A DNA stretch of 44,104 bases from a virus, in IMG/VR virus record IMGVR_UViG_3300012936_000035, positions 1-44,104 of that record; one strand, written 5' to 3'. Both the position numbers and the translations under genes were made by a program. The notes under the pieces are model-generated. The model saw only the letters and a list, made by a program, of their open reading frames with translations. It ran no database searches and was not told the DNA's origin. Positions 3,764 through 40,588 of the stretch are shown piece after piece. Position 1 is the first letter of the stretch, and every line of letters begins with the position of its first letter.

Positions 3764-3764
3764 G

Positions 3765-4129: not shown

Positions 4130-4353
4130 CAGACGAAGAACTCAACGAGATCAAGTCTCACCTGACAGACAACCAGCAGAACTGGAACATGCTGCTCGCG
4201 CAGAGTGACCGGATCAAACTGCTCGCCGAGGTTGACCGTCTGCGAGAGAAGATCGACCAGCTACAGGGGAAGCCAGAAAAGCGGGCATGGGAAGATCACG
4301 GGGAGAACATCAAACTGCTGCGAAGCACCGCCGCCGACAAACAAGACTTCTGA
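4126..4353 (+). CDS. Coiled-coil hypothetical protein (75 aa)
   Basis: The ATG overlaps the preceding stop and follows AGGAGAAGG, so the start is well set. The product begins MTDEELNEIKSHLTDNQQ. Residues 25-55 show heptad-like spacing of Leu, Ile and Val with charged residues (IKLLAEVDRLREKIDQLQ), typical of a short coiled coil. It is soluble and sits between two predicted membrane miniproteins, so it might partner with one of them. Function unknown. Confidence 0.8.
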   Translation: MTDEELNEIKSHLTDNQQNWNMLLAQSDRIKLLAEVDRLREKIDQLQGKPEKRAWEDHGENIKLLRSTAADKQDF

Positions 4354-4439
4354 TGGCAGTGCTCGACATCTACATTCAGAGCACCGTCGCATTGGTCGCG
4401 ATGTTCCTTCTGCTTGTCCTAATGAGGGACCGGCCATGA
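4353..4439 (+). CDS. Single-pass membrane miniprotein (28 aa)
   Basis: This 28-codon frame overlaps the upstream stop as TGATG and the next start as ATGA. The product is MAVLDIYIQSTVALVAM followed by a Leu-rich stretch and RDRP. It is essentially one transmembrane helix (about residues 8-24) with a short basic tail. Its size is near the limit for calling a gene. Support comes from exact tiling between neighbours and from the hydrophobic helix, not from similarity. Confidence 0.5.
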   Translation: MAVLDIYIQSTVALVAMFLLLVLMRDRP

Positions 4440-4531
4440 GCGATCATATTGTTCCTTTGGTCTACCAACTCTCTGCCGTGCTCTGCATCTGCCTCTTTCT
4501 GCTCTACATGATGGGCCGGGGTGACAAGTGA
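4436..4531 (+). CDS. Single-pass membrane miniprotein (31 aa)
   Basis: A 31-codon frame starts in an ATGA overlap and ends in a GTGA overlap with the following gene. The product begins MSDHIVPLVYQLSAVLCI and continues as a Cys/Leu/Phe-rich helix to MMGRGDK. One membrane segment spans about residues 6-25, with two cysteines in the middle of the helix. It is probably translated in concert with its neighbours; role unknown. Confidence 0.55.
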   Translation: MSDHIVPLVYQLSAVLCICLFLLYMMGRGDK

Positions 4532-5091
4532 TTCAAGAAATGCTCCGACAGGTCTGCACTGTCATCGAAAGACACCGACAGCGGGGTCAGACAACCCGGT
4601 TGGTGGACCTCTGCGATGATGGCGACACCCTGTTGATCGCTGCAAACAAACAGGTCGAGCGGTGCATCGCTGACCTTGCTGATGCTCGACGGGGTGTTGG
4701 CCGCAAGCACGTCACGACAGCCTCGCTGCACGGTCTGAACCGTGAGCGGGGGCGGGAACACAAGAACGGGGTCGTGTTCGACAACTTCACTGTCCATACG
4801 ATTGCGGGCATGGCTGACCGGGAGATCGGCAACCTGCAAGACCGGGTGGCCTACGTCGAGCGTCAGAACGCTCACTTGCAGGAGCAAGTGGAGTACATGC
4901 GGGAGAGGGACCAGCGGACCACGGCAGTCATGGTGTCACAGGCACGGCTGCTGAATGACGCCCTCCCTCCCTCGGAGCCTCGCGACACAGGTGGACACGG
5001 CCCGTGGGGCACGACCTACGAGGCCGTCCAAGACCTCTCGGAAGCCGTGCGCCGTGCGGTCGATGCGCTGGGTGGGATGGGTGAGGAGTGA
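4528..5091 (+). CDS. Degenerate P-loop-like protein
   Basis: The start is GTG within a GTGA overlap. The 187-aa product begins MIQEMLRQVCTVIERHRQRG. Residues 19-25 (RGQTTRL) sit where a Walker A loop would be but lack the GKT lysine. Residues 35-39 (LLIAA) form a strand, followed by a helix. VVFDNFTV at 82-89 resembles a Walker B strand ending in DN. This order matches a class of small phage P-loop proteins, here apparently without ATP-binding competence. A probable coiled coil follows at about residues 98-130 (REIGNLQDRVAYVERQNA), and the C-terminus is polar with helices. No enzymatic role is claimed. Confidence 0.5.
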   Translation: MIQEMLRQVCTVIERHRQRGQTTRLVDLCDDGDTLLIAANKQVERCIADLADARRGVGRKHVTTASLHGLNRERGREHKNGVVFDNFTVHTIAGMADREIGNLQDRVAYVERQNAHLQEQVEYMRERDQRTTAVMVSQARLLNDALPPSEPRDTGGHGPWGTTYEAVQDLSEAVRRAVDALGGMGEE

Positions 5092-5137
5092 TCTCACCCG
5101 CGACGGGACACAAGAAATCATGCCGTAGGAGGGGCTG

Positions 5138-5536
5138 ATGAGTGACGAGAAACGAGAGGCACTGGCCGCACTGGAACATGAGCAGTGGGCACATTGGACT
5201 CGGTACATGATCAAGACTCTGGAGCCGATGCTCTCCCCGAACCTGCGCTGGCATCCCGACGTTCGGGGAAACTCCGAGGCTGCGCTTGAGCGATGGCTCC
5301 GTCAGATCAACACCCCCTACGCTGACCTCACGGAGAAGGAGAAGGACAGCGATAGGTGGTGGGCGGACAAGGCGCTGGAGATCACGGGTCAGGAAGACCT
5401 TGCCCAGCATGAGATCACACAGTTCCTCCGCTACCTCCAAACGTGCGGAGGGCACGATGCGCCCTTCGATTTGAAGGCGCACCTCCCCCGCATTCAGAGG
5501 CTCCTCGATGCCCACGACAAGTCGGGGGCAACATGA
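5138..5536 (+). CDS. RyR-domain-like protein
   Basis: This 132-aa protein follows AGGAGGGG, a strong ribosome site in a 46-base gap. The sequence reads LEHEQWAHWTRYMI (residues 12-25), then WLRQINTPYADLTEKEKDSD (53-72) and WADKAL. The combination of an N-terminal His/Glu/Trp helix and a later tyrosine followed by EKEKDSDR is the pattern of the RyR repeat found alone in many phage and bacterial proteins. Where studied, free-standing RyR domains are thought to sense nucleotide or nucleotide-derived ligands; nothing here identifies a ligand. The C-terminal 50 residues are not recognised. The stop overlaps the next start as ATGA. Confidence 0.6.
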   Translation: MSDEKREALAALEHEQWAHWTRYMIKTLEPMLSPNLRWHPDVRGNSEAALERWLRQINTPYADLTEKEKDSDRWWADKALEITGQEDLAQHEITQFLRYLQTCGGHDAPFDLKAHLPRIQRLLDAHDKSGAT

Positions 5537-5641: not shown

Positions 5642-6802
5642 ATGAGCATTGAGAACCACGACTACCTCTACGCCACCTACATCTGGATCGACGGTGGCTC
5701 CCCCACCCAGACCCTACGGTCGAAGACCCGTGTGATCCTCGACACCTCCCTCGTACCGAAGGCCGGAAACCCGACCGAGAACTGGGGCTTGGAGAACGAT
5801 GACTGGGACTGGTCCTTCGATGGGAGCAGCACCATGCAGGCGGACGGTGATTCCTCCGACTGTGTGCTCAAGCCCATCCGGTTCTTCAAGGATCCGCTTC
5901 GACCCCGAACGCCGTGCCCCAAGACGGGCGCGGCACGCTGCCACATCCTCGTTCTCTGCGAGGTCTTTGGGTCGGACGGTGAGCCGCACTCGACCAACTA
6001 CCGCGCTCGCCTCCGTGACGTGGAGCACACCATCGAGGAAAGTGCCGCAGACCCGACCGAGTGCTGGTTCGGCTACGAGCAGGAGTACACGCTGTTCAAG
6101 GGTCCATCGCCTCTCGGATTTCCGGCTGGTGCTCGCTTCCCCGCAGCACAGGGCATGTACTACTGCGGAGTCGGCGCTGATGAGGTGAAGGGCCGTGATC
6201 TGGTCGAGGACCACATGGAGATGTGCGCCCGTGCCGGGATTCACCTGACCGGGATCAACGCCGAGGTCATGCCGGGTCAGTGGGAGTTTCAGGTCGGCGG
6301 TCCCGGTGCTTACGGGACGCTGGCGGGAGATCACCTGTGGGTGGCTCGCTGGCTCCTGTACCGCTTGGGAGAGAAGTACGGCATCCACGCCACGCTCGAC
6401 GCCAAGCCTGTGACCGGAGACTGGAACGGAGCCGGGATGCACACCAACTTCTCGACTCCCGAGATGCGTACAAACTACAAGTCCGATGATGGCCTCATGG
6501 GAGATTCATCCAAGGGCATCCACGCCATCGAGTCATGGTGTGGGGAAGCCTCCCAGCACGTCGAGGATCACCTGTCCGAGTACGGTGACGGCATCGAGAT
6601 GCGACTCACCGGGAAGCATGAGACGTGCTCCTACCGCGAGTTCAAGTGGGGCGTCAGCGACCGCACCGCGAGCATCCGCATCCCCATCGCCACCGCGAAG
6701 AAGGGCTATGGCTACCTTGAGGACCGCCGCCCCAATGCCAACGCCTGCCCCTACCGGGTCGCCGCTGCCATGCTCAAGACCGCCTACGGACTGTGGGAAT
6801 GA
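5642..6802 (+). CDS. glnII: Type II (eukaryote-type) glutamine synthetase
   Basis: The enzyme makes glutamine from glutamate, ammonia and ATP. The 386-aa sequence carries the whole GSII signature set. The N-terminal beta-grasp has YIWIDG and LRSKTR (13-30), then WSFDGSST (57-64). The catalytic barrel has FGYEQEYT with Glu146 and Glu148, NAEVMPGQWEFQVG (206-219), HTNFS (267-271), RLTGKHET (321-328), SIRIPI (344-349) and YLEDRRPNAN (358-367). All expected metal, glutamate and ATP ligands appear intact. The usual final Arg of SIRIPR is Ile here. Length is slightly above typical GSII, with an extra loop after DPLR near residues 85-97. ATG is preceded by GGAG and starts four bases after the upstream stop; the stop overlaps the next gene as ATGA. 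It is thus part of a phage operon, not an isolated insertion. Bacterial GSII is not known to be adenylylated, so a phage copy might escape host GlnE control (inference). Confidence 0.95.
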   Translation: MSIENHDYLYATYIWIDGGSPTQTLRSKTRVILDTSLVPKAGNPTENWGLENDDWDWSFDGSSTMQADGDSSDCVLKPIRFFKDPLRPRTPCPKTGAARCHILVLCEVFGSDGEPHSTNYRARLRDVEHTIEESAADPTECWFGYEQEYTLFKGPSPLGFPAGARFPAAQGMYYCGVGADEVKGRDLVEDHMEMCARAGIHLTGINAEVMPGQWEFQVGGPGAYGTLAGDHLWVARWLLYRLGEKYGIHATLDAKPVTGDWNGAGMHTNFSTPEMRTNYKSDDGLMGDSSKGIHAIESWCGEASQHVEDHLSEYGDGIEMRLTGKHETCSYREFKWGVSDRTASIRIPIATAKKGYGYLEDRRPNANACPYRVAAAMLKTAYGLWE

Positions 6803-13263: not shown

Positions 13264-16200
13264 TCAGGAAGACTCGTCCAGAGCCTTCTGTCGGGCCAAC
13301 TGCTCACGCTGCTTCCGAAGACGTGATCCCAGACTCCCCGCCGCTCGGTTCGCCGTCTGGATCGACCCGTCCGTGCGGTTGGCCCGGAAAGAGAGCCACG
13401 AATACCGCTGCTGCCGGAATCTGTCGTCCAAGTCGAGCACATCCTCAATGAGATCAGGAAGCACAGGACGCTGGCCGAACCCATCCACAGCGAAGTTGGT
13501 GTACCCGAGTGGGTCGAGCCGGGAGTCCAGCACCCAGAATCGACGGTCGAGCACCGAGAGACACTGGGAGTTGTTCGCGAAGGGGGTCGAGGCGACCAGA
13601 CCTTGCAGGCTTGTCGCCGCGATGTTGTGCAGAACTCCGAGGCCAGCGGTCGGGTCCGTGTTCGACCCGATGTCCTTGATGTGGTCGTCCCGCTGGAAGA
13701 CGTAGTAGTCGCCACCCTGTGAGTAGACCGTGTTCAAAGATCCGATCCATGAGAGCATCCGCTCCCGCATGAACAGCACCAGTTCCACAGCGTCCTGCGA
13801 GAACACCGGATTGGGACGGATGATCTTGTAGGCGAAGGGCTGGATGGACTTTTCGGCGTTTGCTCCTGTGCGGGACAGGAACGAGTTGCCCACAGCAGGG
13901 GCCGTGGGTCGGAGGGCCTGCTGGTCTTCCGCCCCGTTGTTCACGATGGGCATGACGACGTACTCGGCCCCAGCATTCCCGAACTTGGTTCCGTCTGTGA
14001 AGCGGGAACTTCCATCCACTGTCAGGGTCGCACCCGAAGGTGCAGCCGCCACACGGTAGAAGCCACGGTTGTCGTCCAACTTGCTCGGTGATCCCGTGTC
14101 GTGGATTGCCCCACGCTCAATGACAGAGGTGTCCCCTACAGGACGTGCCCCGAACTCGGTGTCTGTGTAGAGCTTTCCTGCCGGGTCCACGATGATGTAG
14201 TCGTTCTCGGCTACCGCCTCCCCGGTCTGCGCTGCGGTGGCCGTAGTCCAGTCCGTGACTCCAGAGTCACCCAACTCATTGACAGTGGTGACCTCCCCTC
14301 CGTTCTCGGTGGGTGAAGTGCGCGGCACAAACCGCTGGAAGACCACCTTGTCCGTGATGAGGTCAAGCAACTGCTCGTTGCTCTGCTCATGGGGCACGAT
14401 GGCCTGCTCCAAGTAGACCTCAAACACTGCTCCTGCTGGGATCACCTCGGTCAGCCCCGGTCGCCGCAGTTTCAGCGTCACGGGATCCACAACCTTCTGG
14501 ATTTCTGCTGTGTCAATCAGTGCTCTCTCCCCCGTCGTGGGGTTGAGGCTGAACACCCGAAGCACGTCACCGGAGTTGATGTTCACGTCGGGGTTGTCGA
14601 AGGCACCGAGGTTGGTGGCCTTGGGATAGGTGGCCCCGATCTGGGCGATGAACTCCCGAGAGGAAGCCGTGTAGGAGTTGACCTGACCCCGCCTGATCTC
14701 GTAGGCGAAGCGCAGAGGATCAAGCCCCGCGACCACCTTGTCAGCCTGTTCGTGGAACCGGCGAATCCGGCGCACGGTGAACCTGACATCCTCCTTGCCC
14801 ACACCCGGAGCAGGGGAGAAGGCGTCGTCGTAGTCGCGCATCCCGATCTGGTCCACGGAAGCCGCAGTGTACGAGGCAGATACGACGTGGGGGATGGTCT
14901 GTCCGAGGTTGCCGACCGGAACTGGTGTGCTCGGCTCCAAGAACACACCAGCCAGCGCGTAGAAGGTTCCGGTGCCGCCAGAGAGCGCACTCGCCGCACG
15001 GATACGGTCGGAGGGAAGGAAACATCCGAGCTTTGGGTTGACCGGAGAAATCGTCGCGGTGCTGGCGAAGTGGATGTCCTTCCACTTCGCGTCATTCAAC
15101 TCGGCCACAGTCATGTAGGTGGGCACACCCGTCACTGGTGGTGAGAGGCCAAGGGCAAGGCTGTCCGCCGAGTAGATGGGGGTACTGCGCTCGGCGTTGA
15201 ACGCGAGGCTGTCGTTTGGTGCTGCTGGTACGTTGATCCCGATCCTGTTTGCGGTGGGCAGCGTGGTGGTGACCCGCTGAAGTCCTCCGGTCACTGGCAC
15301 TGCGGTGAACGTCTCGTCACCGTTGCCGTTGGGGTGGGTGGACCCGATGCGGATAGACCGGAAGCCTCCCACACACGCCAATCCTGTGGGTTCCTCCTTG
15401 TATCCCACACAGTTGTTCTTCGGCAGGTTTTCAGCCAGTTGGCGGATAGGGATGTAGACCATCCCCGACACCTTCACGTTTCGCTGTGCCTTCCCGATGA
15501 AGATGTTGTTTGCGACCACGGCACCGTGGGCGTCCCTTGCGTCGGAGATCCCGGTGAAGGTTGCTGCTCCCGTGTCGGGGTTGATGGTGATGCCCGTGTA
15601 TTCAGCGGAGTAGACCGCGTTTGCATCTACCGTCCATGTGGTCGAGGTTGTGTTGAAGGTCGCGTAGTTGTCCTTGATGATCAAGTAGATGCGCCCTGCG
15701 CTCGCCCACGCATGGCCGGTGGGAGAAGTCGCAGCAACCGCCAGAGGGGTCGTGGTGATGCTCTCCGAACCACCTGTGGTCACACTGGAGATGACGCTTG
15801 GGAAGGAGAGGTCGAACGCCTGCTCCTTCCCAGCATCCGCCTGTGGAGCCTCCTGACGAATCCTCGTCGTGTCGAGGGCAGTACCAGTTGGTTCAACCGC
15901 ATGTCGCACCAAGTAGGTGCCTGTCTTGACCGCGCCAGAGTTGGCCGTCTTCCCACCCTCGATGATGAAGGCGTCTCCCGGCTCGACGTTGCTGATGGAG
16001 CCAAAGGTTGAGTGCGTGGCGTCCTGCTGGACCCATGTGCGGTGACCGAAGGTTCCGAACTTGTCGAAGCTGACCCCTGTTCCCGACAAGATCACGCTCG
16101 TCTTTCCAGCGTCGGACGACGCCGCAGCGCCGAACTTGATCCCCGTGAGGTCAGATGCGTCCAGTGGGGTGTTGCCGTTCTTCTCCCACGGCATGACCTT

Positions 16201-19200
16201 GATGGTCCCGCTCTCGTCGTTTGCTCCAGATGCCGAAGCGGCGGTGAACTTGCCGACGTAGGGCACGAATCCGTCCAGCCTCTCCAAGAAGGTGAAGTAG
16301 GTGCCTCCGTTTACGGTGGCGGGGGAGTTGATGAGGCACCCCGTCGAGTCAACCTCGACCTCCCGCACTGCGAGTTTGGTGCTCACATCCACGCTGCCGG
16401 GAGCAGCCGTAGTTGTGTTTCGGTCAGCGGCGTTCGCAAGGCTCACCGTTTCCTTGAAGGTCAGGCGGTCGGTCTGGATGGCTGCGGTGGTAGTACCAAC
16501 ACCCGATCCGACAACCAGCCCGCTCACCGCAGAAGTCTCGGCGTCGATGTAGGAGTCCACCGAGATGGTCACGTCGTAGTAGTTGCCGTCGTTCGCCACC
16601 GACGAGACAGCGTTGTTTGTCTCGATGTAGAGAAAGCCGTTGCGGAAGTAGAACGTGAAGGTTGGGATGCCAGCGGGGATCAGGACGCTTCCCCACACGG
16701 TTCCGCCCGACACGGTGATGCTCTCAACCAGAGCGCCGTTTGCCGGGTCGAAGATCCGCACAACGACCGCACGACCAGCCGCAAGGAACTGGTTGTAGCC
16801 GCCAACACCGGGAGGCCCACCACCTGCCCCATCGTCCAGCACGAACCCGACCGAGGAACAGTCGAACGTCGTCTGGTAGAGGGTCGGCACAGGCTCGACT
16901 TCCGTGACGATGACGCCCTCGGCCCCGCTGCGATTGACTGCCACCGCAGCGTTCTGGATGGTGTGCTTGATGACCGCCCCTTCGGGTACTGGAGTCACGA
17001 AGCGAGGAGTCTCAATCTTGTCCGAGGTCACGTCCCCGATGGAGAGGATGCCTGTGATCCCAGCCGGAACCCCACTTTGCTCGGTCTGCATGAACAAGAA
17101 GTCATAGGGCCTCGCGTCACCGATGCCCGAGTTGGCCGTGTAGGATCCAGCCGTCGCAACCGGGGTCAGGTCCGTCGAGGTGTAGAGGGTCGCCGGGTCA
17201 CGCTGGGTGCCGATGTCGTAGGCCGACGTGAGAATCGCACCATCCTCACCGATGATCTCGTCGGGGTAGACGGCCTTCCATGTGTGGGTCGTCACAGCGG
17301 TGGTGTCTTCAAACAGCAGCCGGAAGTCAGCGGCCACTCGACCGAGGACAGACAACTCGGTGTCGGCCCCTCTGATGTACGGGATCTGGTAGTCGCCCGT
17401 GTCGTCCTTGTCCTCGCCAAGCAGGCACGGAAGCTGGGCAGGCTCCCCATCCGTGTTCACGAACTCAACATCACCCTCGATGCAGGTCATTGGCTGTGGG
17501 GGGTTCTGGTTCAACCACGTCTGCAAGGGCAGTGGGAACACGTCTTCCTTGACCGGAAGGGAAGCGTCGATGAACTCGCCCGTGCGCTTGCCCACCTTGA
17601 GGTCGTACTGGATGCGGTAGTCGGGCAGCGATGCGATGATTGCTTCCGAATCTGCCTCGGTAAGTGGGAGTTCTGCGATGGCGTCAAGCAAGGCGAAGTC
17701 GATCACCGGGCCGCAGAACACCGTGTCGCCGTACCCGTCGTCAACGCTGATGATCTCCTCCAGCGGGTCGGTGCCGTTGTAGAGCACAGCGGAACCAGAC
17801 AGGGGGGCACCTGCCTTATCGCCGAGGACGATGATGTAGCCGTCAATCACTTGGCTGACGAAGATGCCGTTACCGCTGCTGTCCGTCAGTGAGTAGACCG
17901 TATCGTTCGGCTTGCCGTAGTTGAGTTGCTGGCCCACCTCAAACGCCGGGGTGGAGAGGTCCACGTCACCAGACACAAGGTCGAACAGGGCACCGCCACC
18001 GGAGATCAGTTGGGTGGGATCGGGGAGTCCCGTAGTGGGATCCACTGGGAACTCGCTCAACGGGAGCGGGGTCGCCACGATGGTCGCAGCCGATGTGCCG
18101 AGGTCCGTGTTCCCATTCGGGTAGTAGGCCCAGACCCGTGCGCGAGGGCGTCGGTCCTCTGCCGTGACATCCACCACGTTCTCGACGTTGCCGAGAGCGG
18201 GGTTGGCGATCTGGCCGATGGGAGACTTCCGGGTCTTGACCACCTGCTCGGTTTCCTCACCCGGCTCTGGACCGGGCACCGTGACCTTGCGCCCCGACGT
18301 GTAGAAGCCGGGATCGGATTCCGGCACGAAGTCGATGCCGGGGAACAGCCGTGAGAAGTGTCGGGTCATCTCTGGGTACAGGCGCGAGTAGCGGTGCGCC
18401 TGCCACATCGACCGGAACACTCCGGGGATGTCGAAGGAGGGGAACAATGCCGCCAGACCCCGTGGGCGACCAAACCCAATGAGGAGCCTGTCGTCCATGT
18501 CGTTCTTGATGCGGTGGCGCTGCTTGTTCGTGAAGAACTGGAGCGTGTCGGGGTTGGGTGTCTTCCCGTCCGAGGCCCCCGGTCTGTCGGTAGGTTCAGG
18601 AACCTCTGCCGTCGTGGGATCAAACACGGGGTCAGCCGTCTTGTACCATCCCGAGTAGCTGTCGGACGACCACTCGTTGACGATTTCTCGCCACACCAGT
18701 CGAGTCCGCAAGTCGCCTGTGATCTCGTCCTCAAAGCCGGGGCGGACATACCGCTTGCCGCGACCCACGAAGAACCGGAACTTGCCGTCCCTGTCGCCGA
18801 TGACCCGACCGTCGATGGCCTCCAACACCTGCTCAAAGGCCAACACGACTCCGTTGAACAAGCTGATGTAGGCGCGGGCTGCTCGGTCTTGGTCCTTGAA
18901 GTCCCGTGCCTCACCACGAAGCCCGAAGTTGCCCTTCTTGCTCAAGTCAGTCGAGCCGCCGAACGGAACGGATGCACCGAAGCTGACCGGGTTCGCCCCT
19001 TGCGCCCCCGACGCCGCCTGCACTTTGGGCAGGTAGTCGGTGAGGGTGAGCACCGAGAAGTAGAACGAGTCGGGATCACGATAGCTGTACTGCGCCTTGA
19101 GGATCTGACCGAGAAGTCGGTTCTCCAGAGAGGGCGTGGTGATGTGGAGGTACTTCGCCTTGTAGAAGGGGTAGAGAAGCGCACCGTCCACGATCTCTGG

Positions 19201-22200
19201 GAGCACGTTGACCAGCCGAGTGTGTCGGAAGTGCAGGTACTCGCCGGGATTCAAAGCCCCCTGTGTCGGACTCTGGAAGATCACGTCACCAGAGTTGGCG
19301 TCCACGGTGTAGTGGACATCCTCGACCAAGAGCTTGCCGGGGATGTCCTTGCCGCTGGAGTCTTTCCGCCCCAGCAAGAACAGGTCATAGTCCTCGCTCT
19401 GCACGAAGGGAGACAGACCCGCGAACTGGACAGGGCTTGGCGCGTACACGGGCCGCACACTGACCCGAACGGTGTCCGAGTTGTCGTGGTCCTTGTAGAC
19501 CGGGGTAGCGAGGCTCACGACGGTGTTCCTTCCGTCGTCCGAGAGCGATGACCCGACGACGATGTACGGGTAGCCGTCGATCTCCAGAAGGTGGTTCGCC
19601 CGTGTGTACTGGCGCACGTCACCGTAGAACGACACCTCCAACTGTCCCTTGTCCGCAGGCAGCAAGGGTGTTGTCGCTGTGTCCAGCACAGGTATAAAGC
19701 CGCCCGTCGCTGGGTTCGTCGCCGGGGCCACGGGGAAGTCTGAAACCGTCAGTCCGGCATCCCTGCCCACCGCTCGACTACCGACCTCGACCTGTGTTGT
19801 GGGGAAGATGCCGACCGTGGTGGTGTCTGTTCCGCTGTCGTAGGAGGAGGCCGTGATGTAGATGGGTGCCGGACCCAACAGGATCAGATGACCTACAGGG
19901 AAGTCGCTGGTGCGGTTCGTTTCCAGAGTGAACTCGCTCGTCCCTGACTCCAGAAAGAAGGGCTTGCGGTACACAGGGGGTGTACTGACCGTGTACGCCT
20001 GCTCACCGCCGAAGGCTTCCAGCACGCCGTAGTTGATCTGCACCTTGTCGGTCGTGCTGACTTCGGACAGGAACTTGATGGTTCCGTTCTCCGCTGTGGC
20101 TGTCGTGACTCCAGCAAAGTTTTGAAGGTTCACACCCACCCAGATGAACTCCTCAACCGTGGTCGAGAGTGTCTTTCCTGTCGGGTTGTAGGTGTAGGTG
20201 AACCCATCGACACGGGTGGCTTCCTCAAGGCGGACAATGAGAGGCAAGAACTCCGTGATCTCAACGGCAGCACCATTGGCATCGAGCTTCTTGTCCCCGT
20301 TGCTGTCCGCTTGGAAGTAGCTGACCTCGACAATCTGCCCTGCTCGTAGAGGCTTGTTGAACAGGACACTCCCGTTGAGGGGCGAGGTGGTCACGTCGAG
20401 GCTGTTCTCCGTGACCATCTGCTCCACGAAGTAGGCCGTCTTCCCAGATTGGGTCAACAGAGCACCAGACGTGATGTTCACGGACCCGTCAGCGGCGTTG
20501 ATCTCGCACGTCCCTGCTGCGAGATCAGCGGGGGAGAGGAACAACTGGTCGTAGAAGACACTACTTCCGGTCTGTTCTGACACCACCGCAGCGTCGATGG
20601 TCACCGCTCCTGTGGTGGTGTCCACATCTACCGGACCACCACCCCCGTTCACCGTGGGGGTGTAGACCAACGCACCGATGCGAATCTGGAAGCGGACAGG
20701 ACCGCTATCCGATGTCGCCACATGAGGGTCGGTGGCATCAACAGTCAGCCCGGTCGCCACGACCGTGCCGATTTCTACACCACGGGTCAGGTACGTCGGG
20801 ATTGCTTCCGGTGATCCAGCATCCAGACCGAACCGCAGCTTCGTCACCCGACCCACACGCAAGGCGTCCACAGGATTGACAGTGAGAGCACCCCCAACCG
20901 TGCCCGCCGCCGTGAGAGTTCGGATCTTGAATGGTTCTTCGGGCAGGTGGTTGGTGACCACTTGCTTCACGTCAGCGAGAAGCGTCCCATCCAGATCCGT
21001 CCGCTGCTTGGCTTCGTAGATGCGCCACTGCGCGGGCGGTGCGGTGTTGGTGCTCCCTGCGCTTGCCGGGAAGGGGGGCGTCACGTCAGTAGCAGACGTG
21101 AACGTGTACACCCCCTCGGCATCACCGCTGATGATGTGGAGCAGGTAGCCGGGGAACACAGTCCCGAGAGGCGTATTGGGATCAGAGAACGTCACCGACC
21201 CGCTCGCGAAGGTGCCGTTGCCGCCCTGCGAGATGATCTCACCTTCGACGGAGATGCGAACTGCCTGACCCGGCTGTCCATCACCGGGCATCAAGAAATC
21301 AGTTCCGAGGGCCAGTTCCGTGTACAAGGTGTCTGTCGCACCCTTGAGATCAAGGCCGAACGAGCCGTCTTCCATCGCCGCAGAGGAAACCGTTTCGGTA
21401 ACCGTTCCGGTGTCGCTCAACTGGAGCGTGGGTGAAGGGAACGCAACCGAGGTCGGGTTCGTGGTGCCCTGCTCGACCCATGTGAAGCGGTTGTTCGGCC
21501 AGTCGTACTTCATCCCGATCTTCTTGGTGTTCGGGTAGTTGCGGAGCAACACCTCAAGAAGACCGCTCTGAACCTTGAAGTGCTGGTTCGGGCTGTACCC
21601 GTCGATGTTCTCCAAGGGAGGCTGGTTCACCGTGACGAAGGGAACTGCCGGGATGCTCTCGGACAACACCTCGTCCTTGAATCGCGAGCGTGCTCGGATG
21701 TCCAGCGTGTCAGGATCGCTCCGGTCGAGGTTCACGGGGGACCGGAACACACCCATCGAAGCCCCGTTGTCTGGGAGCCACCGAAAACGGTCTTCGGGGT
21801 CGTCCATGTCCACACGCCAGCCGGGAAGGAAGCCGAGAACAGCGTGGCCCGAGAGGTCCGTCTGGTCTGTGTTCCAACCGATCTCCACGGCACCTGTCTC
21901 CGGGGTCGGGGATTGCAGGTAGACGCGGTTTCGCTCGACTCCAGCGTGGCCTGCTGTGAAACTCGCAGCCACGTCGCTCGCCGTGTGTGTTCCGGCACCC
22001 AGCGTTGCGGCAGACCATGTGTGGACTGATCCGTCGATGGCGTACCGAAGAACCTCTGTGCCAACCAGCGTGTACGGACCCTCAAACCGAGAGTAGATGG
22101 TGGCTTCCTCGGCGTAGGTCGATGGGGCGATCATCGCCTGTCGGAAGTACAAGGCGTCCTGTCGGACAGGACGATGCCTCAACTGAATCCGAGATGCGTT

Positions 22201-23652
22201 GTCCGCTCCAGCGGGGGTGGTCGATGGCTCCATGCGAGCCACAGCCACATCCGTCTTGGGCACCTTGATCTTGAGCTTTGGTAGGTCTTCGTCGTACTCC
22301 TCCACATCGACATTCTCAAAGGCGAAGTTGGACGAGTCCGAGAACGAGAAGAAGAACGTGTCTCCCGCCTCTGCTCTCACCTGACGCACCAGACCTGTGC
22401 CGTTCGGACGGGTCTGGGGGGTGGTCGTGAGGGCGGCAGTAGTCGGCTTTTCACCAGAGCCGTCCGGCACCCATGAAACCCCGCTGACCCCCGGAGGGGG
22501 AAGGCACACCGACCGTTGGACGTAGAGGTCGCCCGTGGAGTCGCCAACCGTGACTCCACCCAGAGCCGGATCGACCTTCTGCCCTGTGCTGTCGTAGATG
22601 ACGCTCGGGGCCTTCACCGTGACTGCTTTGGTAGAGAGAACTACACCGTCGAAGTAGAGACGTGATCCCAGATAGGCACGGTCGTAGGTAGCATCACCCG
22701 GTGTAGCACGAAGGATGTCGGCTGCTGACAGGACGATGCGCCCCGTCGTGCGCGACCAGTAGAAGTCCCCGGAACTGACCACAGAAGGGACGGGGAGCGC
22801 AGCATCGTTGACCACCGAGTTGGGTTTCAGCCATGTCCGACTGCCAATCCGAAGCAAGGGGCGCTCGCCGGGGCCGGGAACAGGGGAAAGCGAGGGGAAC
22901 CCCTGCTTGGTCGTGGTCGGGAAGTCCGCCATGGTGCCCATGTCGCCATCAGCATCGGGCACGAACGTCTCGGCGTTGTACCAGAGGTCACGTCCCGCCT
23001 GTGCCTCCACGAAGGTGGGGTTGAGGATGAGGATGCCGCTTTTCTCTCCCATGATGGCGTCACCCAAACCACCATCCCAGACCCCAGCGTCGGCAACCAC
23101 ATCAGTGACAACACGGATCTCCAGTGGTGTGGATCCCGAGTCCGCATAGAGGCCAACCCGAACCAGCGCGTACCCATCCGCCGAAGCAGGGTTGGGGAGC
23201 GTGACCCCAGAGGCAAACCGTGTCGGTGGTGGGTTCAAGGTATAGGACTCGTCGGGGTCCACGGGTCCGAGATTCCGTGCGGGTGATCCCTTGAGAGGCA
23301 ACCACTTCTGTGCGATGCCGTCCCAGCCGAACCGCTGGACATCAGGATCGTTGCGGGTCCACCAGAACTTCACCTCGTCTGTGGTGTCCGACAGAAATCC
23401 GTTCGACGCCGCGAACATGCAGTATTCCCGACTCGCCGCTCGGTCGGTTGGCTGGAGCAGGACTGCCGCCCGGTACATGTCGGCGTATGGCTCGACGGGA
23501 TCGTTGGGGAGGACCACATAGCCAAGCGCCGTCAGCGTCGTCACGGTGATGTGATCTCGGTCTACACCGGTCGTAGCCTCGTCAGAGTCAGACGAGTTCC
23601 CTGTTGCCACCCGTGCGGGTCGGAGCACATAGCCATTGAGATCGAAACCCAC
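13264..23652 (-). CDS. Giant baseplate/tail structural protein (3462 aa)
   Basis: This single open frame of more than 10 kb codes for about 3.5 thousand residues. The GTG (product MGFDLNGYVLRPARV) is preceded by GAGGG at nine bases and follows the upstream stop by 16 bases; an upstream TTG would overlap the previous gene without a ribosome site. The protein is overwhelmingly beta-rich, with many Thr/Ser/Gly/Val strands, recurrent short modules in which an acidic or DPTTG turn links strands, and few helices. The last 300 residues differ: they are helical with LVLFMRERMLSWIGSLN, a conserved-looking LDRRFWVLDSRLDPLGYTN, and a Gln/Arg-rich basic tail. There is no signal peptide, catalytic motif or collagen-like repeat. 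Context downstream of hub and spike genes suggests a baseplate platform or fibre network. Function is inferred from position only. Confidence 0.65.
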   Translation of the reverse strand: MGFDLNGYVLRPARVATGNSSDSDEATTGVDRDHITVTTLTALGYVVLPNDPVEPYADMYRAAVLLQPTDRAASREYCMFAASNGFLSDTTDEVKFWWTRNDPDVQRFGWDGIAQKWLPLKGSPARNLGPVDPDESYTLNPPPTRFASGVTLPNPASADGYALVRVGLYADSGSTPLEIRVVTDVVADAGVWDGGLGDAIMGEKSGILILNPTFVEAQAGRDLWYNAETFVPDADGDMGTMADFPTTTKQGFPSLSPVPGPGERPLLRIGSRTWLKPNSVVNDAALPVPSVVSSGDFYWSRTTGRIVLSAADILRATPGDATYDRAYLGSRLYFDGVVLSTKAVTVKAPSVIYDSTGQKVDPALGGVTVGDSTGDLYVQRSVCLPPPGVSGVSWVPDGSGEKPTTAALTTTPQTRPNGTGLVRQVRAEAGDTFFFSFSDSSNFAFENVDVEEYDEDLPKLKIKVPKTDVAVARMEPSTTPAGADNASRIQLRHRPVRQDALYFRQAMIAPSTYAEEATIYSRFEGPYTLVGTEVLRYAIDGSVHTWSAATLGAGTHTASDVAASFTAGHAGVERNRVYLQSPTPETGAVEIGWNTDQTDLSGHAVLGFLPGWRVDMDDPEDRFRWLPDNGASMGVFRSPVNLDRSDPDTLDIRARSRFKDEVLSESIPAVPFVTVNQPPLENIDGYSPNQHFKVQSGLLEVLLRNYPNTKKIGMKYDWPNNRFTWVEQGTTNPTSVAFPSPTLQLSDTGTVTETVSSAAMEDGSFGLDLKGATDTLYTELALGTDFLMPGDGQPGQAVRISVEGEIISQGGNGTFASGSVTFSDPNTPLGTVFPGYLLHIISGDAEGVYTFTSATDVTPPFPASAGSTNTAPPAQWRIYEAKQRTDLDGTLLADVKQVVTNHLPEEPFKIRTLTAAGTVGGALTVNPVDALRVGRVTKLRFGLDAGSPEAIPTYLTRGVEIGTVVATGLTVDATDPHVATSDSGPVRFQIRIGALVYTPTVNGGGGPVDVDTTTGAVTIDAAVVSEQTGSSVFYDQLFLSPADLAAGTCEINAADGSVNITSGALLTQSGKTAYFVEQMVTENSLDVTTSPLNGSVLFNKPLRAGQIVEVSYFQADSNGDKKLDANGAAVEITEFLPLIVRLEEATRVDGFTYTYNPTGKTLSTTVEEFIWVGVNLQNFAGVTTATAENGTIKFLSEVSTTDKVQINYGVLEAFGGEQAYTVSTPPVYRKPFFLESGTSEFTLETNRTSDFPVGHLILLGPAPIYITASSYDSGTDTTTVGIFPTTQVEVGSRAVGRDAGLTVSDFPVAPATNPATGGFIPVLDTATTPLLPADKGQLEVSFYGDVRQYTRANHLLEIDGYPYIVVGSSLSDDGRNTVVSLATPVYKDHDNSDTVRVSVRPVYAPSPVQFAGLSPFVQSEDYDLFLLGRKDSSGKDIPGKLLVEDVHYTVDANSGDVIFQSPTQGALNPGEYLHFRHTRLVNVLPEIVDGALLYPFYKAKYLHITTPSLENRLLGQILKAQYSYRDPDSFYFSVLTLTDYLPKVQAASGAQGANPVSFGASVPFGGSTDLSKKGNFGLRGEARDFKDQDRAARAYISLFNGVVLAFEQVLEAIDGRVIGDRDGKFRFFVGRGKRYVRPGFEDEITGDLRTRLVWREIVNEWSSDSYSGWYKTADPVFDPTTAEVPEPTDRPGASDGKTPNPDTLQFFTNKQRHRIKNDMDDRLLIGFGRPRGLAALFPSFDIPGVFRSMWQAHRYSRLYPEMTRHFSRLFPGIDFVPESDPGFYTSGRKVTVPGPEPGEETEQVVKTRKSPIGQIANPALGNVENVVDVTAEDRRPRARVWAYYPNGNTDLGTSAATIVATPLPLSEFPVDPTTGLPDPTQLISGGGALFDLVSGDVDLSTPAFEVGQQLNYGKPNDTVYSLTDSSGNGIFVSQVIDGYIIVLGDKAGAPLSGSAVLYNGTDPLEEIISVDDGYGDTVFCGPVIDFALLDAIAELPLTEADSEAIIASLPDYRIQYDLKVGKRTGEFIDASLPVKEDVFPLPLQTWLNQNPPQPMTCIEGDVEFVNTDGEPAQLPCLLGEDKDDTGDYQIPYIRGADTELSVLGRVAADFRLLFEDTTAVTTHTWKAVYPDEIIGEDGAILTSAYDIGTQRDPATLYTSTDLTPVATAGSYTANSGIGDARPYDFLFMQTEQSGVPAGITGILSIGDVTSDKIETPRFVTPVPEGAVIKHTIQNAAVAVNRSGAEGVIVTEVEPVPTLYQTTFDCSSVGFVLDDGAGGGPPGVGGYNQFLAAGRAVVVRIFDPANGALVESITVSGGTVWGSVLIPAGIPTFTFYFRNGFLYIETNNAVSSVANDGNYYDVTISVDSYIDAETSAVSGLVVGSGVGTTTAAIQTDRLTFKETVSLANAADRNTTTAAPGSVDVSTKLAVREVEVDSTGCLINSPATVNGGTYFTFLERLDGFVPYVGKFTAASASGANDESGTIKVMPWEKNGNTPLDASDLTGIKFGAAASSDAGKTSVILSGTGVSFDKFGTFGHRTWVQQDATHSTFGSISNVEPGDAFIIEGGKTANSGAVKTGTYLVRHAVEPTGTALDTTRIRQEAPQADAGKEQAFDLSFPSVISSVTTGGSESITTTPLAVAATSPTGHAWASAGRIYLIIKDNYATFNTTSTTWTVDANAVYSAEYTGITINPDTGAATFTGISDARDAHGAVVANNIFIGKAQRNVKVSGMVYIPIRQLAENLPKNNCVGYKEEPTGLACVGGFRSIRIGSTHPNGNGDETFTAVPVTGGLQRVTTTLPTANRIGINVPAAPNDSLAFNAERSTPIYSADSLALGLSPPVTGVPTYMTVAELNDAKWKDIHFASTATISPVNPKLGCFLPSDRIRAASALSGGTGTFYALAGVFLEPSTPVPVGNLGQTIPHVVSASYTAASVDQIGMRDYDDAFSPAPGVGKEDVRFTVRRIRRFHEQADKVVAGLDPLRFAYEIRRGQVNSYTASSREFIAQIGATYPKATNLGAFDNPDVNINSGDVLRVFSLNPTTGERALIDTAEIQKVVDPVTLKLRRPGLTEVIPAGAVFEVYLEQAIVPHEQSNEQLLDLITDKVVFQRFVPRTSPTENGGEVTTVNELGDSGVTDWTTATAAQTGEAVAENDYIIVDPAGKLYTDTEFGARPVGDTSVIERGAIHDTGSPSKLDDNRGFYRVAAAPSGATLTVDGSSRFTDGTKFGNAGAEYVVMPIVNNGAEDQQALRPTAPAVGNSFLSRTGANAEKSIQPFAYKIIRPNPVFSQDAVELVLFMRERMLSWIGSLNTVYSQGGDYYVFQRDDHIKDIGSNTDPTAGLGVLHNIAATSLQGLVASTPFANNSQCLSVLDRRFWVLDSRLDPLGYTNFAVDGFGQRPVLPDLIEDVLDLDDRFRQQRYSWLSFRANRTDGSIQTANRAAGSLGSRLRKQREQLARQKALDESS

Positions 23653-23668
23653 GTCGCCATTCCCTCGG

Positions 23669-24244
23669 TCAGATGATGCTTGACCTGCTGACACCAATAC
23701 CCGGTGACGGACCAGCCGCGCCTACAGACACTCCTGTCCCGAAACCTGTGAGGAACATAGACGCGATACCGGAGGCAAGGCCGACCGAGAGTTGCTTTGA
23801 GGCGGGTCCGATGATCCCCTGTGCAGCCATCGCCACATTGAGTGCGGTGACCAGAGTGGCAGGGTTCGCGAAGACGACCTTGGAAACATCAGCCCCGATG
23901 GCACCGACGCTCTGTCCGATGTAGGCACCGGAAGCCGAATACGCTGTGCCGATGCCGATGCCCACCGCAGCACCCACTTGCGGAGCGTTCAGTCCGACCA
24001 TCCCTGTTCCCGTGAGGGCCGCGACCACGGGAACAGGGACAGGAGGAAGCACCAACTTGCCTGTGACTTGGCCTCCACCGGCTGCTCCTGTGGTGGTCCC
24101 TACCATCACCACGTTTGCTGGGATCACGGACCATCCCACGACCGCGATGCCAATGGCGGTGGACAACTGGAACCAAGCTGGACCCTTGAGCATAGGTCCA
24201 GCAGCGATGATCGCTCCCGTTACGGCTGGAGGGGTGACAGGCAC
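23669..24244 (-). CDS. Hydrophobic Gly/Ala-rich baseplate-region protein (191 aa)
   Basis: The start is GTG sharing one base with the spike stop (TAGTG). The product begins MPVTPPAVTGAIIAAGPMLK and is rich in Gly, Ala, Val and Thr throughout. It has several apolar stretches such as GIAVVGWSVIPANVVMV, and GxxxG-type motifs, but few charged residues. The composition would suit a membrane-interacting tip or a tightly packed trimer plug. In contractile injection systems small genes beside the spike often encode tip or membrane-piercing parts, but no PAAR motif is visible. Function inferred weakly from location. Confidence 0.55.
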   Translation of the reverse strand: MPVTPPAVTGAIIAAGPMLKGPAWFQLSTAIGIAVVGWSVIPANVVMVGTTTGAAGGGQVTGKLVLPPVPVPVVAALTGTGMVGLNAPQVGAAVGIGIGTAYSASGAYIGQSVGAIGADVSKVVFANPATLVTALNVAMAAQGIIGPASKQLSVGLASGIASMFLTGFGTGVSVGAAGPSPGIGVSRSSII

Positions 24245-36811: not shown

Positions 36812-37918
36812 TTATCGGGACGGCTTGAAGTGTGGGTTCTCCGTTCCACGGGGATCAGTGGGGGTCTTCTCCGTCGAGGATTCACGACCCCTCGGAGACA
36901 GGTTCTCGGAGGGGAGCCTGTACGCCTCAATCCCACCCACCTTGCCAGCAGGCTTCGCCCGCCGCAGGGCATCCTCTGGGGATGGTTCCTCACGACGCGC
37001 CTCAACAGCCGCCGCCCGTGCCGCCATGATGCGGGATTCCTCTGCTGCGAGCACATCCGGGTCGTTGCCATCGCCGAACGAGGACTGGAAACCGTCTTCG
37101 GTGGGGGCATCATCCTTCGGGGGAGTTGTGGTCCGGTAGACAGGAGGGCCTGACGAGGGTGGTGGAACGACAGGAGGCACTACCGACTTGCGCTCCGGGG
37201 CGGGAGCGGGCTGTTCCGGTACTGCGGGAGCATCTTCTCCCGATCTAATCCCCGCCGCTTCCATTGAGACAGCATCAGCCGCAGCTTCGGCTTGTCGCTC
37301 GATGGCCTCTCCAGCGCGGAGAAGGCTGGTGATCTGCTGGTTCGTGACGCTGGGATCACCAGCCGCTCTCATGTCGCGCTCGTTCTTGAGCCGTTCCAGA
37401 CGATCCGTGACCCGGCTGATCTCGGCATCGAGGTCAGGCATCGAGGTCTTCGCCACCTTGTCAGCTTGGTCGGCGATCTTCTGAATCAGTTCGCCGTAGC
37501 GAGAGAAGCAGACTGTGATCATGGCGCGGGACCAGCCCTCCACGATTTCTCGCATCGCCATCGTCCGCTTCACCTGCACAGGTACGCCGTTGTCCAGCAC
37601 CTCGCCCGTAGCGATGGTCTTGACGTTGCGGAGATCGAGGCTGTCCACCTGCACGATGCTGTAGGCGATGATCTCGATGCGGAAGCGGTCGAAGTAGTCA
37701 AGCGCCGCTGCACGACCCATCTGGTCATCGTCACCAAGCCCTTCTCGGGACTGGATGTCCGTCAGGACTGACGCGGCATACCGCTGGACCTCTACTTCCT
37801 CAAGGGGCAGCAGAGGTCGAACAGTGACCGACATTCCGGCTACATCAAAAGTGGACTCGTCCCTCCCAACTTCCGAGAGGGGTGCGAGGGCTTGCTTGAG
37901 AGTTTTGAGATCGAGCAT
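36812..37918 (-). CDS. Candidate tail assembly chaperone 1, disordered C-terminus (368 aa)
   Basis: Residues 25-115 hold the chaperone-like core: STFDVAGMSVTVRPLLPLEE, then YFDRFRIEIIAYSIVQVDSL. A helical segment (DAEISRVTDRLERLKNERD) follows. From about residue 220 the sequence becomes Pro/Ser/Glu-rich and probably unstructured (PPVVPPPSSGPPVY). The paired arrangement with the next gene and location between tail tube and tape measure support a role in tail assembly. A GCTGTAG that weakly resembles the late-promoter candidate lies 30 bases before the start. Alternative: another virion component with intrinsic disorder. Confidence 0.5.
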   Translation of the reverse strand: MLDLKTLKQALAPLSEVGRDESTFDVAGMSVTVRPLLPLEEVEVQRYAASVLTDIQSREGLGDDDQMGRAAALDYFDRFRIEIIAYSIVQVDSLDLRNVKTIATGEVLDNGVPVQVKRTMAMREIVEGWSRAMITVCFSRYGELIQKIADQADKVAKTSMPDLDAEISRVTDRLERLKNERDMRAAGDPSVTNQQITSLLRAGEAIERQAEAAADAVSMEAAGIRSGEDAPAVPEQPAPAPERKSVVPPVVPPPSSGPPVYRTTTPPKDDAPTEDGFQSSFGDGNDPDVLAAEESRIMAARAAAVEARREEPSPEDALRRAKPAGKVGGIEAYRLPSENLSPRGRESSTEKTPTDPRGTENPHFKPSR

Positions 37919-37958: not shown

Positions 37959-38459
37959 TCAGCGCCGACGATACCCCGGCTCACCGAAGCCGGGAACGTA
38001 CCGCAACTTGCCCAGCATCCGATGGAACACCCTCTGCGCGGCGTCGGAATCGAACAAGACATAAGCAGCGATCTCGGCGTTCATCCGTGCGTCCGCAGAG
38101 TAGCCGTACACCCGATCCACATTGAAGGCCAACGTCTGCGACGGACCATGCTCGGTAACCGAGAACACAGCCTTGAAAGGATGCTCTCCGGGGCGGCTGG
38201 AGTCGGTGACGGTCCCAGTGGCGTAGAAGGTTCCGCTCATCGCCGTGATCCCACCCCCTTCCTCGCCGTAGTTCTTCACGGTCTTGTTGTCCACGGACTC
38301 CAAGTTGATGCCGTACTTGTGGCCCGTGCGGTACGGGTTGAAGGACTCGGCCTTCTTGAGCGCGGAGAGAATGGCTCTCCGCTCCTCACTGCCTGCGGGG
38401 AGTGAGGATGCCATACGGATCAGGGACTTCCGTTCGGAGGCCATCAGTTTGCGAGTCAT
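37959..38459 (-). CDS. Small virion-like protein (166 aa)
   Basis: The product begins MTRKLMASERKSLIRMASS and continues LPAGSEERRAILSALKK. That short N-terminal helix motif (LIR.ASSLP.GS.ERRAIL) recurs, as I recall, in several unrelated phage and jumbo-phage proteins, where it may be a targeting or removable peptide; I know of no proof. The body (about residues 50-150) is beta-rich (GGITAMSGTFYATGTVTDSS), ending in a basic tail. AAAGGAG precedes the ATG. Function unknown; position within the tail operon suggests a virion role. Confidence 0.6.
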   Translation of the reverse strand: MTRKLMASERKSLIRMASSLPAGSEERRAILSALKKAESFNPYRTGHKYGINLESVDNKTVKNYGEEGGGITAMSGTFYATGTVTDSSRPGEHPFKAVFSVTEHGPSQTLAFNVDRVYGYSADARMNAEIAAYVLFDSDAAQRVFHRMLGKLRYVPGFGEPGYRRR

Positions 38460-38507: not shown

Positions 38508-39755
38508 TCACTCTGTGACGAGCAGCTTCGACTGGATGTGGGACACGTCCAGCGGCTTCGTGGAGTCATAGTTGTGGCATCCGAAGCAGTTGGGGATGAA
38601 CGAGTCGTCTCCCTGCTGGAATGTCTCAAGGCTCATGTTCGCCAGTTCCAGTGATCCCCGCTGGGGGCTGTCGGGGTTGGCTGGACCCTGACCGCTTGGC
38701 ACAGGAGGCGAACCGGAGTTGGCCCCGTCCTTCGTCCACAGACCGCCGACCATCTCGTAGTTGGCCCAGACGGACAGGGGATCACCGCTGGGAAGCTCGA
38801 CCAGAAGACCTGCGGAACCAACCAGAGCCTCATTGAGTTCTACGATGGCCTTGAGGTTGGCCTCGTTGTCGTTGCCGTTGACCGACGCTCCAGACTCGTT
38901 GCCGTGGGCGTACTCACGGCACACGTTGTTCGGAGCACCCGTTAGGGGCACCGTGCCGGACGGCAGTGTGTCAGGGGTGTTGAACGCGAAAGACGAGCAC
39001 GCCTCGGACGGAGGACCATCGCCGTCGTGCTTGTTCGCGGACAGACACGCCGCTGCATCTGCGCTGGTGAAGGACCACGAACCCTCTGGGGAGTGGCCGT
39101 TGCACAGCGGAGCGTTCCGCTTGTGCTCCCACGACGCCCAGATCATCTCTGGGTGGTTGGGTGTCCAGATGGCGAGGTGAAGTCCGACCAGACCAAGGAA
39201 CACTTCCTCGCCACCCATCTCCACGACGATCACGAAGAAGTCTGACTCCGGGGCGTTCAGCTTCATCCACGCCGCCTTGACCTCCAACGTGCCGGGGGCG
39301 AACCCGCTCGACGTGGAGTCACAGAGCGCCTGTGAGTAGAAGGCATTGTAGTGGAGGACGTTGCCACGCTGGTCGTAGAGCGCGTTCGCGTCGGCCTGCA
39401 CTTCCTCAAAGTCCTCGGACTTGATAGTGCGAGGCACCAGAGCAGCCTGCACACCAAGCACACCCGTGAGGGCTTCCCCGGCGCACTGACCATTCCCACC
39501 CAAGGGCTGGTAGACCCGATTCTCAAGGAAGTTGGGCATCCCGTTCGCAGGATTGAGGCTGACCTGTGCCAAGAACCACTGCCAAGAGAACTGGTAGAAA
39601 TCGCAGAAGGACTCGGCTTCCGGCACCTCGGAAGGCATCGTCGGGTTGCTGATCCAAGCGGGGTCAGCATCACAGGTCACGGGAGCGGGCGGCGCGGGAG
39701 GTGTCGGGTCTGGACACCCAGCGAGCATCAGCGAAAGAATGAGGGCGTGTCTCAT
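38508..39755 (-). CDS. Cytochrome c-like lipoprotein with CXXCH motif
   Basis: The start MRHALILSLMLAGCPDP is set by GGAGAACA five bases upstream; an ATG four codons earlier would leave the ribosome site inside the gene. Residues 1-13 form a lipoprotein signal, with LAGC placing lipid Cys14, then a Pro-rich linker. A domain follows with FCDFYQFSWQWFLAQVSLNP (about 50-69) and IWASWEHKRNAP (about 205-216). It ends with the covalent-haem motif CFGCH at 390-394 in the context NMSLETFQQ and NCFGCHNYDSTKPLDVSH. This order resembles large bacterial cytochrome c family proteins. Role inferred as an exported, lipid-anchored, possibly haem-binding protein. Alternatives are a virion lipoprotein or a superinfection-exclusion factor. 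It lies between the tail tube and virion genes, behind a terminator. Confidence 0.75.
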   Translation of the reverse strand: MRHALILSLMLAGCPDPTPPAPPAPVTCDADPAWISNPTMPSEVPEAESFCDFYQFSWQWFLAQVSLNPANGMPNFLENRVYQPLGGNGQCAGEALTGVLGVQAALVPRTIKSEDFEEVQADANALYDQRGNVLHYNAFYSQALCDSTSSGFAPGTLEVKAAWMKLNAPESDFFVIVVEMGGEEVFLGLVGLHLAIWTPNHPEMIWASWEHKRNAPLCNGHSPEGSWSFTSADAAACLSANKHDGDGPPSEACSSFAFNTPDTLPSGTVPLTGAPNNVCREYAHGNESGASVNGNDNEANLKAIVELNEALVGSAGLLVELPSGDPLSVWANYEMVGGLWTKDGANSGSPPVPSGQGPANPDSPQRGSLELANMSLETFQQGDDSFIPNCFGCHNYDSTKPLDVSHIQSKLLVTE

Positions 39756-39829: not shown

Positions 39830-40588
39830 TCAGCCCCGGAAGGTGTCTCCGTAGATCAGGGAGGCAGTCTCGCCGCGACTCGGATCGTTCCCGGTAGCAA
39901 GGAACTCACCGTAGATCACGCTGGAGAAGTCGTGGACATCGGTGATGGTCACCGTGCCGGACTCCATGACCATCGCACTGTCTTTCTGGAAGGCCGTGTT
40001 CCAGTCACCCCACCAGCACCCCTCGTAGTAGGTGATCAGGATGTTGTGACTGCCCTGATCGGAGCCGTTTCCGAGAGGGCCACCTCCACCAATGGCACCC
40101 TCGTATGGCAGCGATCCGAACGCTCCGAAACCTGTGTTGGTGCCAGTCCCGTCGCCGCTGATCTCACGGTCAGCGATGGTCGAGAAGACGATCTGCTGCT
40201 CGATGTCGAACGGCCAACGATGGTGACGGAGGCTTCGGCACGGGCCGCTGACCCCAGAGGCGTAGCCAGTGCTCTGCCACAGGTTCGACAGGTACAGCAT
40301 GGTCCGCTCGATGGAGGCAGTCATCGGCTCTGTGTTCCCCGGAACAAGCTCTGCGATGATGTCTCCGAAGCCGATCCCCCGCACGTTCTCGATGGTGCGT
40401 GACTCGGTGGGTCCAAAGTTGGAGAGAACACCAATCTGGAGAAGCCCCGTACCGCCGAAGCCGGGGGCAAGGACGCGCACCTTCTGGGTGACGACGCTCC
40501 GAGTGTTCGGGCTGGTGCCGAACTTGTACATCTGAGAAGTGCCCTGCAAGCCGTTCCCGGCTTCGGGTCTGTGGTCGGTGTTCGGCAT
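39830..40588 (-). CDS. Tail tube protein (candidate)
   Basis: The 252-aa product has RTIENVRGIGFGDIIAELVP (about residues 64-83), RTMLYLSNLWQSTGY (94-108), RHHRWPFDIEQQIVFS and a C-terminal TYYEGCWWGDWNTAFQKD followed by VTITDVHDF. This alternation of beta strands around one helix matches myovirus tail tube subunits: a core repeat in which SIERTMLYLSNLW is the tube helix. Context agrees: a strong terminator follows, as for abundant structural genes, and chaperone and tape measure genes lie downstream. The ribosome site GGAGG precedes the ATG, with CCTATAC 31 bases away. No sheath gene is visible nearby. Confidence 0.65.
   Translation of the reverse strand: MPNTDHRPEAGNGLQGTSQMYKFGTSPNTRSVVTQKVRVLAPGFGGTGLLQIGVLSNFGPTESRTIENVRGIGFGDIIAELVPGNTEPMTASIERTMLYLSNLWQSTGYASGVSGPCRSLRHHRWPFDIEQQIVFSTIADREISGDGTGTNTGFGAFGSLPYEGAIGGGGPLGNGSDQGSHNILITYYEGCWWGDWNTAFQKDSAMVMESGTVTITDVHDFSSVIYGEFLATGNDPSRGETASLIYGDTFRG

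Follow-up and report, generated by a model that had tools for sequence, protein, structure and literature searches.

A phage gene predicted to encode an envelope haem c lipoprotein with a cytochrome P460/c'-beta-like fold

Cytochromes P460 and cytochromes c'-beta belong to a superfamily in which the haem is ligated by a single histidine, that of the CxxCH motif, and a distal ligand site is present; a haem-lysine cross-link (Lys70, Lys78, Lys106) is the defining feature of P460 proteins, and in c'-beta proteins a methionine or phenylalanine replaces the cross-link lysine (PMC11928373). Few phage genes encode haem c proteins. In a literature search for phage haem c proteins the sole precedent found was SoxD, encoded by an auxiliary metabolic gene on phage contigs, two phage copies of which lack haem motifs (Kieft et al. 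2021, PMC8190135), and no report of a phage P460 protein was found. Here we describe a viral gene whose product is probably likewise of the haem c type, but it resembles P460/c'-beta proteins whereas SoxD, which acts in thiosulfate oxidation, is a classical cytochrome.

The window, that is, the whole stretch of DNA analysed, comprises 44,104 bases of a virus record. The gene lies on the minus strand at 38508-39755 and encodes 415 amino acids; its assignment is based on the open reading frame, phage orthologues and the predicted fold. The ATG at 39755 stands behind GGAGAACAAC, and this start is supported by the leader (GGAG-AACAAC-ATG), which is identical to that of the next gene. The first-pass annotation had described a LAGC lipobox, a proline-rich linker and a CFGCH motif in this gene, all of which were confirmed in the minus-strand reading frame. 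The lipobox (LMLAGC, with LAGC at residues 11-14; 39714-39725, minus strand) follows a short signal peptide, as is typical of bacterial lipoproteins, and Cys14 is the predicted lipid-bearing residue, with a proline at +2. The Gly-Cys and this proline are retained in all four phage orthologues, and a lipobox was also found in the Lysobacteraceae relatives L008, L009 and L011. The linker reads PDPTPPAPPAP, and the putative haem-attachment motif occupies residues 390-394 of 415 (38574-38588, minus strand). A minus-strand search for consensus sites, which misses other phage promoter types, found no promoter or terminator belonging to the gene itself.

Searches of Pfam, PHROGs, NCBIfam and PDB sequences gave no meaningful match to the product, and no homologue was found among the INPHARED phages. 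The suggestion that the domain resembles a large bacterial cytochrome c family did not hold, as neither Pfam nor NCBIfam gave a hit, the CxxCH is C-terminal and the predicted fold is P460/c'-beta-like. Class I cytochrome c (PF00034) was considered and rejected because the CxxCH is not N-terminal and the modeled core is beta-rich; PF00034 gave no hit in the window protein and weak hits in just two of 59 relatives.

Close orthologues of the gene are present in IMG/VR contigs of 37, 159 and 206 kb. The 37-kb and 206-kb copies align along almost the whole protein at 63% and 65% identity, and the 159-kb copy is 78% identical across residues 245-413. A scan of bacterial genomes returned 75 loci, and the family has members in no fewer than 70 bacterial genomes, plus a few phage contigs. 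Identity to the bacterial proteins is 46-57% in Lysobacteraceae, mostly 31-38% in Pseudomonas, Rheinheimera, Shewanella, Pseudoalteromonas and others, and 25-29% in Bacteroidota. The bacterial family behind the gene is undescribed and has no Pfam entry of its own.

Lack of conservation of the haem motif among relatives had been named at the outset as grounds for abandoning the haem reading. Exactly one CxxCH, close to the C-terminus, is present in 76 of the 76 relatives examined, from Gammaproteobacteria to Bacteroidota, and the motif, histidine included, falls in a single alignment column throughout the 59 rows. In the distant phage protein L125 it reads CFDCH. The motif is thus not a chance occurrence. 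The most conserved block of the alignment is GLHLAIWTPNHPEMIWASWEHKRNAP (residues 191-216; 39108-39185, minus strand), in which G191, H193, H201, P202, W206, E210, N214 and P216 are invariant over the 59 rows. Further on, the invariant residues are Y333, G337, W340, G367, N373, E377, C390, C393 and H394, followed C-terminally by a Ser405-His406 pair (38538-38543, minus strand; 59/59 rows). Several other cysteines are also conserved. All of these invariant positions are common to the phage protein and its bacterial orthologues (L005-L079), and the pattern appears enzyme-like or ligand-pocket-like, not that of a passive plug.

Modeling had been suggested as a check for a cytochrome fold, and the AlphaFold2 model (pLDDT 88.2, pTM 0.88) points to a haem superfamily, that of P460 and c'-beta, and not to classical cytochrome c. 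A Foldseek search of the PDB placed cytochromes P460 or c'-beta at each of ranks 1-15, at E values of 0.09-0.5 that are not significant. With VIA-align, the top 17 rows were likewise all c'-beta or P460 (Z 4.5-6.2, thus below 8, with 125-141 residues aligned of 135-160), and Z fell to 3.6 for the next fold, pyridoxamine-phosphate-oxidase. The best Z (6.2) belonged to the c'-beta group (McCP-beta, TtCP-beta, NeCP-beta). A second model was built for the L125 protein, which is 27% identical and comes from an unrelated phage contig (pLDDT 75). VIA-align again ranked 17 of 17 superfamily rows at the top, with the same gap below them; over both models these rows had Z 4.5-6.2 against 3.5-3.6 for the next fold, and 125-143 residues were aligned to targets 135-161 residues long. 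Plain Foldseek with this second model returned the superfamily intermingled with unrelated folds. The two models are not fully independent support because their alignments have members in common. Nothing in a viral structure library gave a meaningful match to the model of the haem protein.

Profile comparisons point in the same direction. Pfam family PF16694 (Cytochrome_P460) matched ten of 59 relatives below its cut-off (best E 0.0056) and gave no hit in the window protein or in a search of four phage records. Since the curated cut-off was not reached, we do not file the protein as a member of PF16694. When hhalign was used to compare profiles of the whole family, and also of reduced blocks, with our own P460 alignment, it paired only the CxxCH segment and, in a separate match, the FxxGTxxxK segment, and the signal outside CxxCH was weak. 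Membership of the P460/c'-beta superfamily is therefore predicted at the level of the beta-sheet fold, with which a haem pocket around CFGCH is consistent. The single CxxCH close to the C-terminus of the domain is a superfamily trait, found in P460 (PF16694; NeP460, McP460, NsP460), in c'-beta and in the phage protein. The differences are considerable: cytochrome P460 has about 160 amino acids, and the phage protein has 415, including an insertion of about 115 residues (approximately 215-330), and is predicted to be a lipoprotein. The c'-beta proteins are also much smaller.

The sequence FAPGTLEVK (residues 152-160; 39276-39302, minus strand) places Lys160 at the P460 cross-link position, as judged from the motif and a weak profile alignment. 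In our P460 alignment the lysine lies five residues past the glycine of F-x-D-G-T-x-x-x-K, and phenylalanine takes its place in c'-beta-like rows. The corresponding motif of the haem family is F-P-x-G-T-x-E-x-K, so that the lysine at G+5 of F-x-x-G-T-x3-K is common to P460 and the phage protein, and K160 is present in 57 of the 57 rows that cover the position, whereas c'-beta has Phe or Met there. A local hhalign run with the FxxGTxxxK block alone chose the pairing of K160 with the P460 lysine, weakly and in one comparison (E 0.044). The invariance of K160, the motif spacing and the weak profile pairing together lead us to predict a P460-type haem-lysine cross-link at this residue. On the distal side, the likely register suggests that Gly191 may stand in place of the P460 catalytic carboxylate (Glu96/Asp102), in which case it would match the glycine of c'-beta. 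The invariant His193 is found two residues on and E203 and E210 are conserved nearby; with H193 and E210 the distal pocket of the family is probably polar.

The window probably represents part of a large tailed-phage genome, given the gene content of the related 206-kb contig (G001), which encodes a DNA polymerase, helicases, an NAD-dependent ligase and a head-maturation protease. The viral assignment is based on IMG/VR and on PHROG matches to endolysin, DNA polymerase, helicase, ligase and head-protease. One window protein matches a 485-kb uncultured phage (32% identity over 94% of its length), and Pfam families of terminase and sheath proteins were not found in the large-phage records. An assembly artefact or host contamination was rejected because further viral contigs carry the haem gene amid homologues of window genes. 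In the window the haem gene is followed after a 48-bp gap by a gene for a 166-residue protein of unassigned function (37959-38459, minus strand), a 66% identical homologue of which is the gene that follows the haem gene in L003/L083. Upstream of this pair is a probable virion structural protein gene (39830-40588, minus strand; weak match to phrog_985, E 0.009; 83% identical in G001), and downstream is another gene of the structural region (36812-37918, minus strand), which adjoins the 39830-40588 homologue in G001. The first-pass annotation had named these flanks tail tube and tail-assembly genes. They are conserved side by side in the 206-kb contig, but the names are weakly supported, as the first depends on the marginal match just given and no PHROG hit was found for the second.

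In G001 the homologues of both flanks are adjacent (112.1-113.5 kb) and no haem gene lies between them. The haem gene and its companion lie side by side roughly 33 kb from there, where the same-strand structural block ends, and keep both their order and the 48-bp gap. The pair therefore appears to move as a unit, and a site in a "tail operon" is not fixed. In the 159-kb contig (G003/L004) the haem gene (2884-5522) is split by an IS605-type TnpB gene (3555-4847), which indicates that it is accessory and dispensable there. A portion of the absent central segment is encoded on the other strand in L004, suggesting an inversion. The L125 phage has genes for a repressor, both terminase subunits, a portal protein and head morphogenesis, and the distant family member lies just upstream of the terminase genes. 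As to the companion, an N-terminal segment of about 35 residues, RKLMASERKSLIRMASSLPAGSEERRAILSALKK, recurs near the N-terminus of other proteins of the 206-kb relative (L085:6039-6146 and L136:642-2912); it is perhaps a common targeting or propeptide tag.

In a tree of the family, the phage trio forms a clade with 100% support that is nested inside the Lysobacteraceae clade, and dN/dS among the phage copies is approximately 0.15-0.25, dS being close to saturation. These data suggest that a cellular gene was captured and then maintained under purifying selection, and the donor was apparently a soil or water bacterium. The Lysobacteraceae copies are chromosomal and of patchy occurrence (five of 149 genomes have close relatives), and several of their loci lie near mutS, a TonB-dependent receptor gene, lexA and recA. 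The branch of L125 is very long, and a test of a single origin for both phage lineages gave an AU p of 0.48, which favors neither one capture nor two. Morons are extra genes of cellular origin absent from the equivalent place in a relative; the tree points to such an origin here, and the gene is missing between the flanks in G001. The idea of a moron encoding an envelope haem protein was partly supported, with a predicted lipoprotein-type exported sequence, a conserved covalent-haem motif and an extra gene in the late region.

The bacterial neighborhoods suggest oxidoreductase chemistry. In five loci (L032, L065, L068, L070 and L079), 0-42 bp separate the family gene from a downstream gene for LodA, which is followed by a LodB-like flavoprotein. 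LodA is encoded within 3-5 kb in L052 and L061, and a GMC oxidoreductase gene lies downstream in L013. The cytochrome-LodA-LodB triad is operon-like, and the family member may be a hitherto undescribed redox partner for CTQ quinoproteins. We know of no cytochrome partner for LodA or GoxA. A C-terminal MVL mannan-binding-lectin domain (PF12151, best E 1.2e-14) is present in 36 of 59 relatives, and is absent from the phage and nearest Lysobacteraceae forms; its fusions to the haem domain were seen in many of the bacterial members L015-L062. Some bacterial members are plain secreted proteins. Together the LodA, GMC and MVL contexts connect the family with oxidoreductase chemistry in the periplasm or outside the cell and do not directly give a substrate.

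We consider it fairly probable that the gene is a host-derived moron encoding an envelope lipoprotein of the P460/c'-beta structural class with a general redox or ligand-binding role; any one specific substrate is much less probable. The gene would lie among the late genes in a lineage of large tailed phages, and its position and strand suggest expression late in infection. The product would be exported by Sec, lipidated on Cys14 and face the periplasm, with a core that is a divergent relative of the P460/c'-beta fold carrying the insertion. Haem would be loaded on C390 and C393 by the cytochrome c maturation system of the host, with H394 as the proximal ligand, Lys160 at the cross-link position and some of H193, E210, W206, Y333 and W340 probably lining an open distal pocket. 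Its most likely job would be redox or ligand-binding chemistry on small reactive species such as hydroxylamine, NO or peroxide; alternatively, it may exchange electrons with a periplasmic oxidoreductase in the envelope of the infected cell. Either could benefit the infected cell or the phage. A bolder proposal, which we hold only tentatively and think somewhat more likely wrong than right, is that the family is a new group of large lysine-cross-linked P460-type enzymes, undescribed though widespread in bacteria and partly LodA-coupled, which two or more unrelated phage lineages have acquired as an envelope redox moron.

Other explanations can be weighed against the same evidence. The protein could take electrons from a host LodA-like or GMC oxidase, or remove its peroxide, so that the phage tunes amino-acid or alcohol oxidation. 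The five loci with lodA-lodB directly downstream and the more distant LodA and GMC genes would fit, but such neighbors are missing from the closest bacterial relatives (Lysobacteraceae and Pseudomonas), no LodA, GMC or other redox gene was found beside the haem gene in the phages, and the characterized LodA and GoxA are described as oxidases that release peroxide (PMC4417212); we regard this role as unlikely. Doubt is greater still for two further readings. Were the cysteines a disulfide or metal site and the fold match a common beta arrangement, the Foldseek E values above 0.05, the VIA-align Z values below 8 and the other conserved cysteines would be explained. An invariant CxxCH with its histidine in 59 of 59 rows argues against this, as do the P460 Pfam signal in ten relatives and the models of two proteins, 27-30% identical, both of which rank the haem superfamily alone at the top in VIA-align, and a protein that binds no haem seems improbable to us.

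Phage-encoded lipoproteins that block superinfection exist, and the lipobox kept in all four phage orthologues would suit a lipoprotein that masks the envelope, blocking receptors or DNA entry, with the haem incidental. The CxxCH and all pocket-type residues are nevertheless identical in bacterial relatives without any role in a phage, and the exclusion lipoproteins known to us are small, in contrast to a 415-residue protein under purifying selection, which makes exclusion about as improbable as a haem-free protein. Least likely is a component of the tail or released particle acting at entry: the gene shares a strand with the structural block in the window and in G001/G002, but its signal peptide and lipobox direct the protein to the envelope, its position in the block differs among related phages, and no virion protein match was found. 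If haem is attached to the envelope lipoprotein that we favor, the phage would depend on host cytochrome c maturation and would put a redox center in the envelope during infection, and may thus shift the redox or nitric-oxide/peroxide chemistry of the host's outer compartment. The bacterial family, which retains a P460-type lysine although its proteins are much larger and which is linked in some genomes to LodA quinoproteins and mannan-binding-lectin domains, is a target for new haem enzyme activity.

Several other genes of the window were noted. A glutamine synthetase gene (5642-6802, plus strand; Gln-synt_C, E 1.8e-21) lies on the strand opposite to the structural genes and is a possible second host-derived metabolic gene. 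The structural region includes a Staphylococcal-nuclease-like gene (PF00565; 40631-41110, minus strand) and a cold-shock-like gene (PF00313; 42592-43002, minus strand). The largest open reading frame (13264-23697, minus strand) encodes a protein of 3477 amino acids that is approximately 45% conserved in related contigs.
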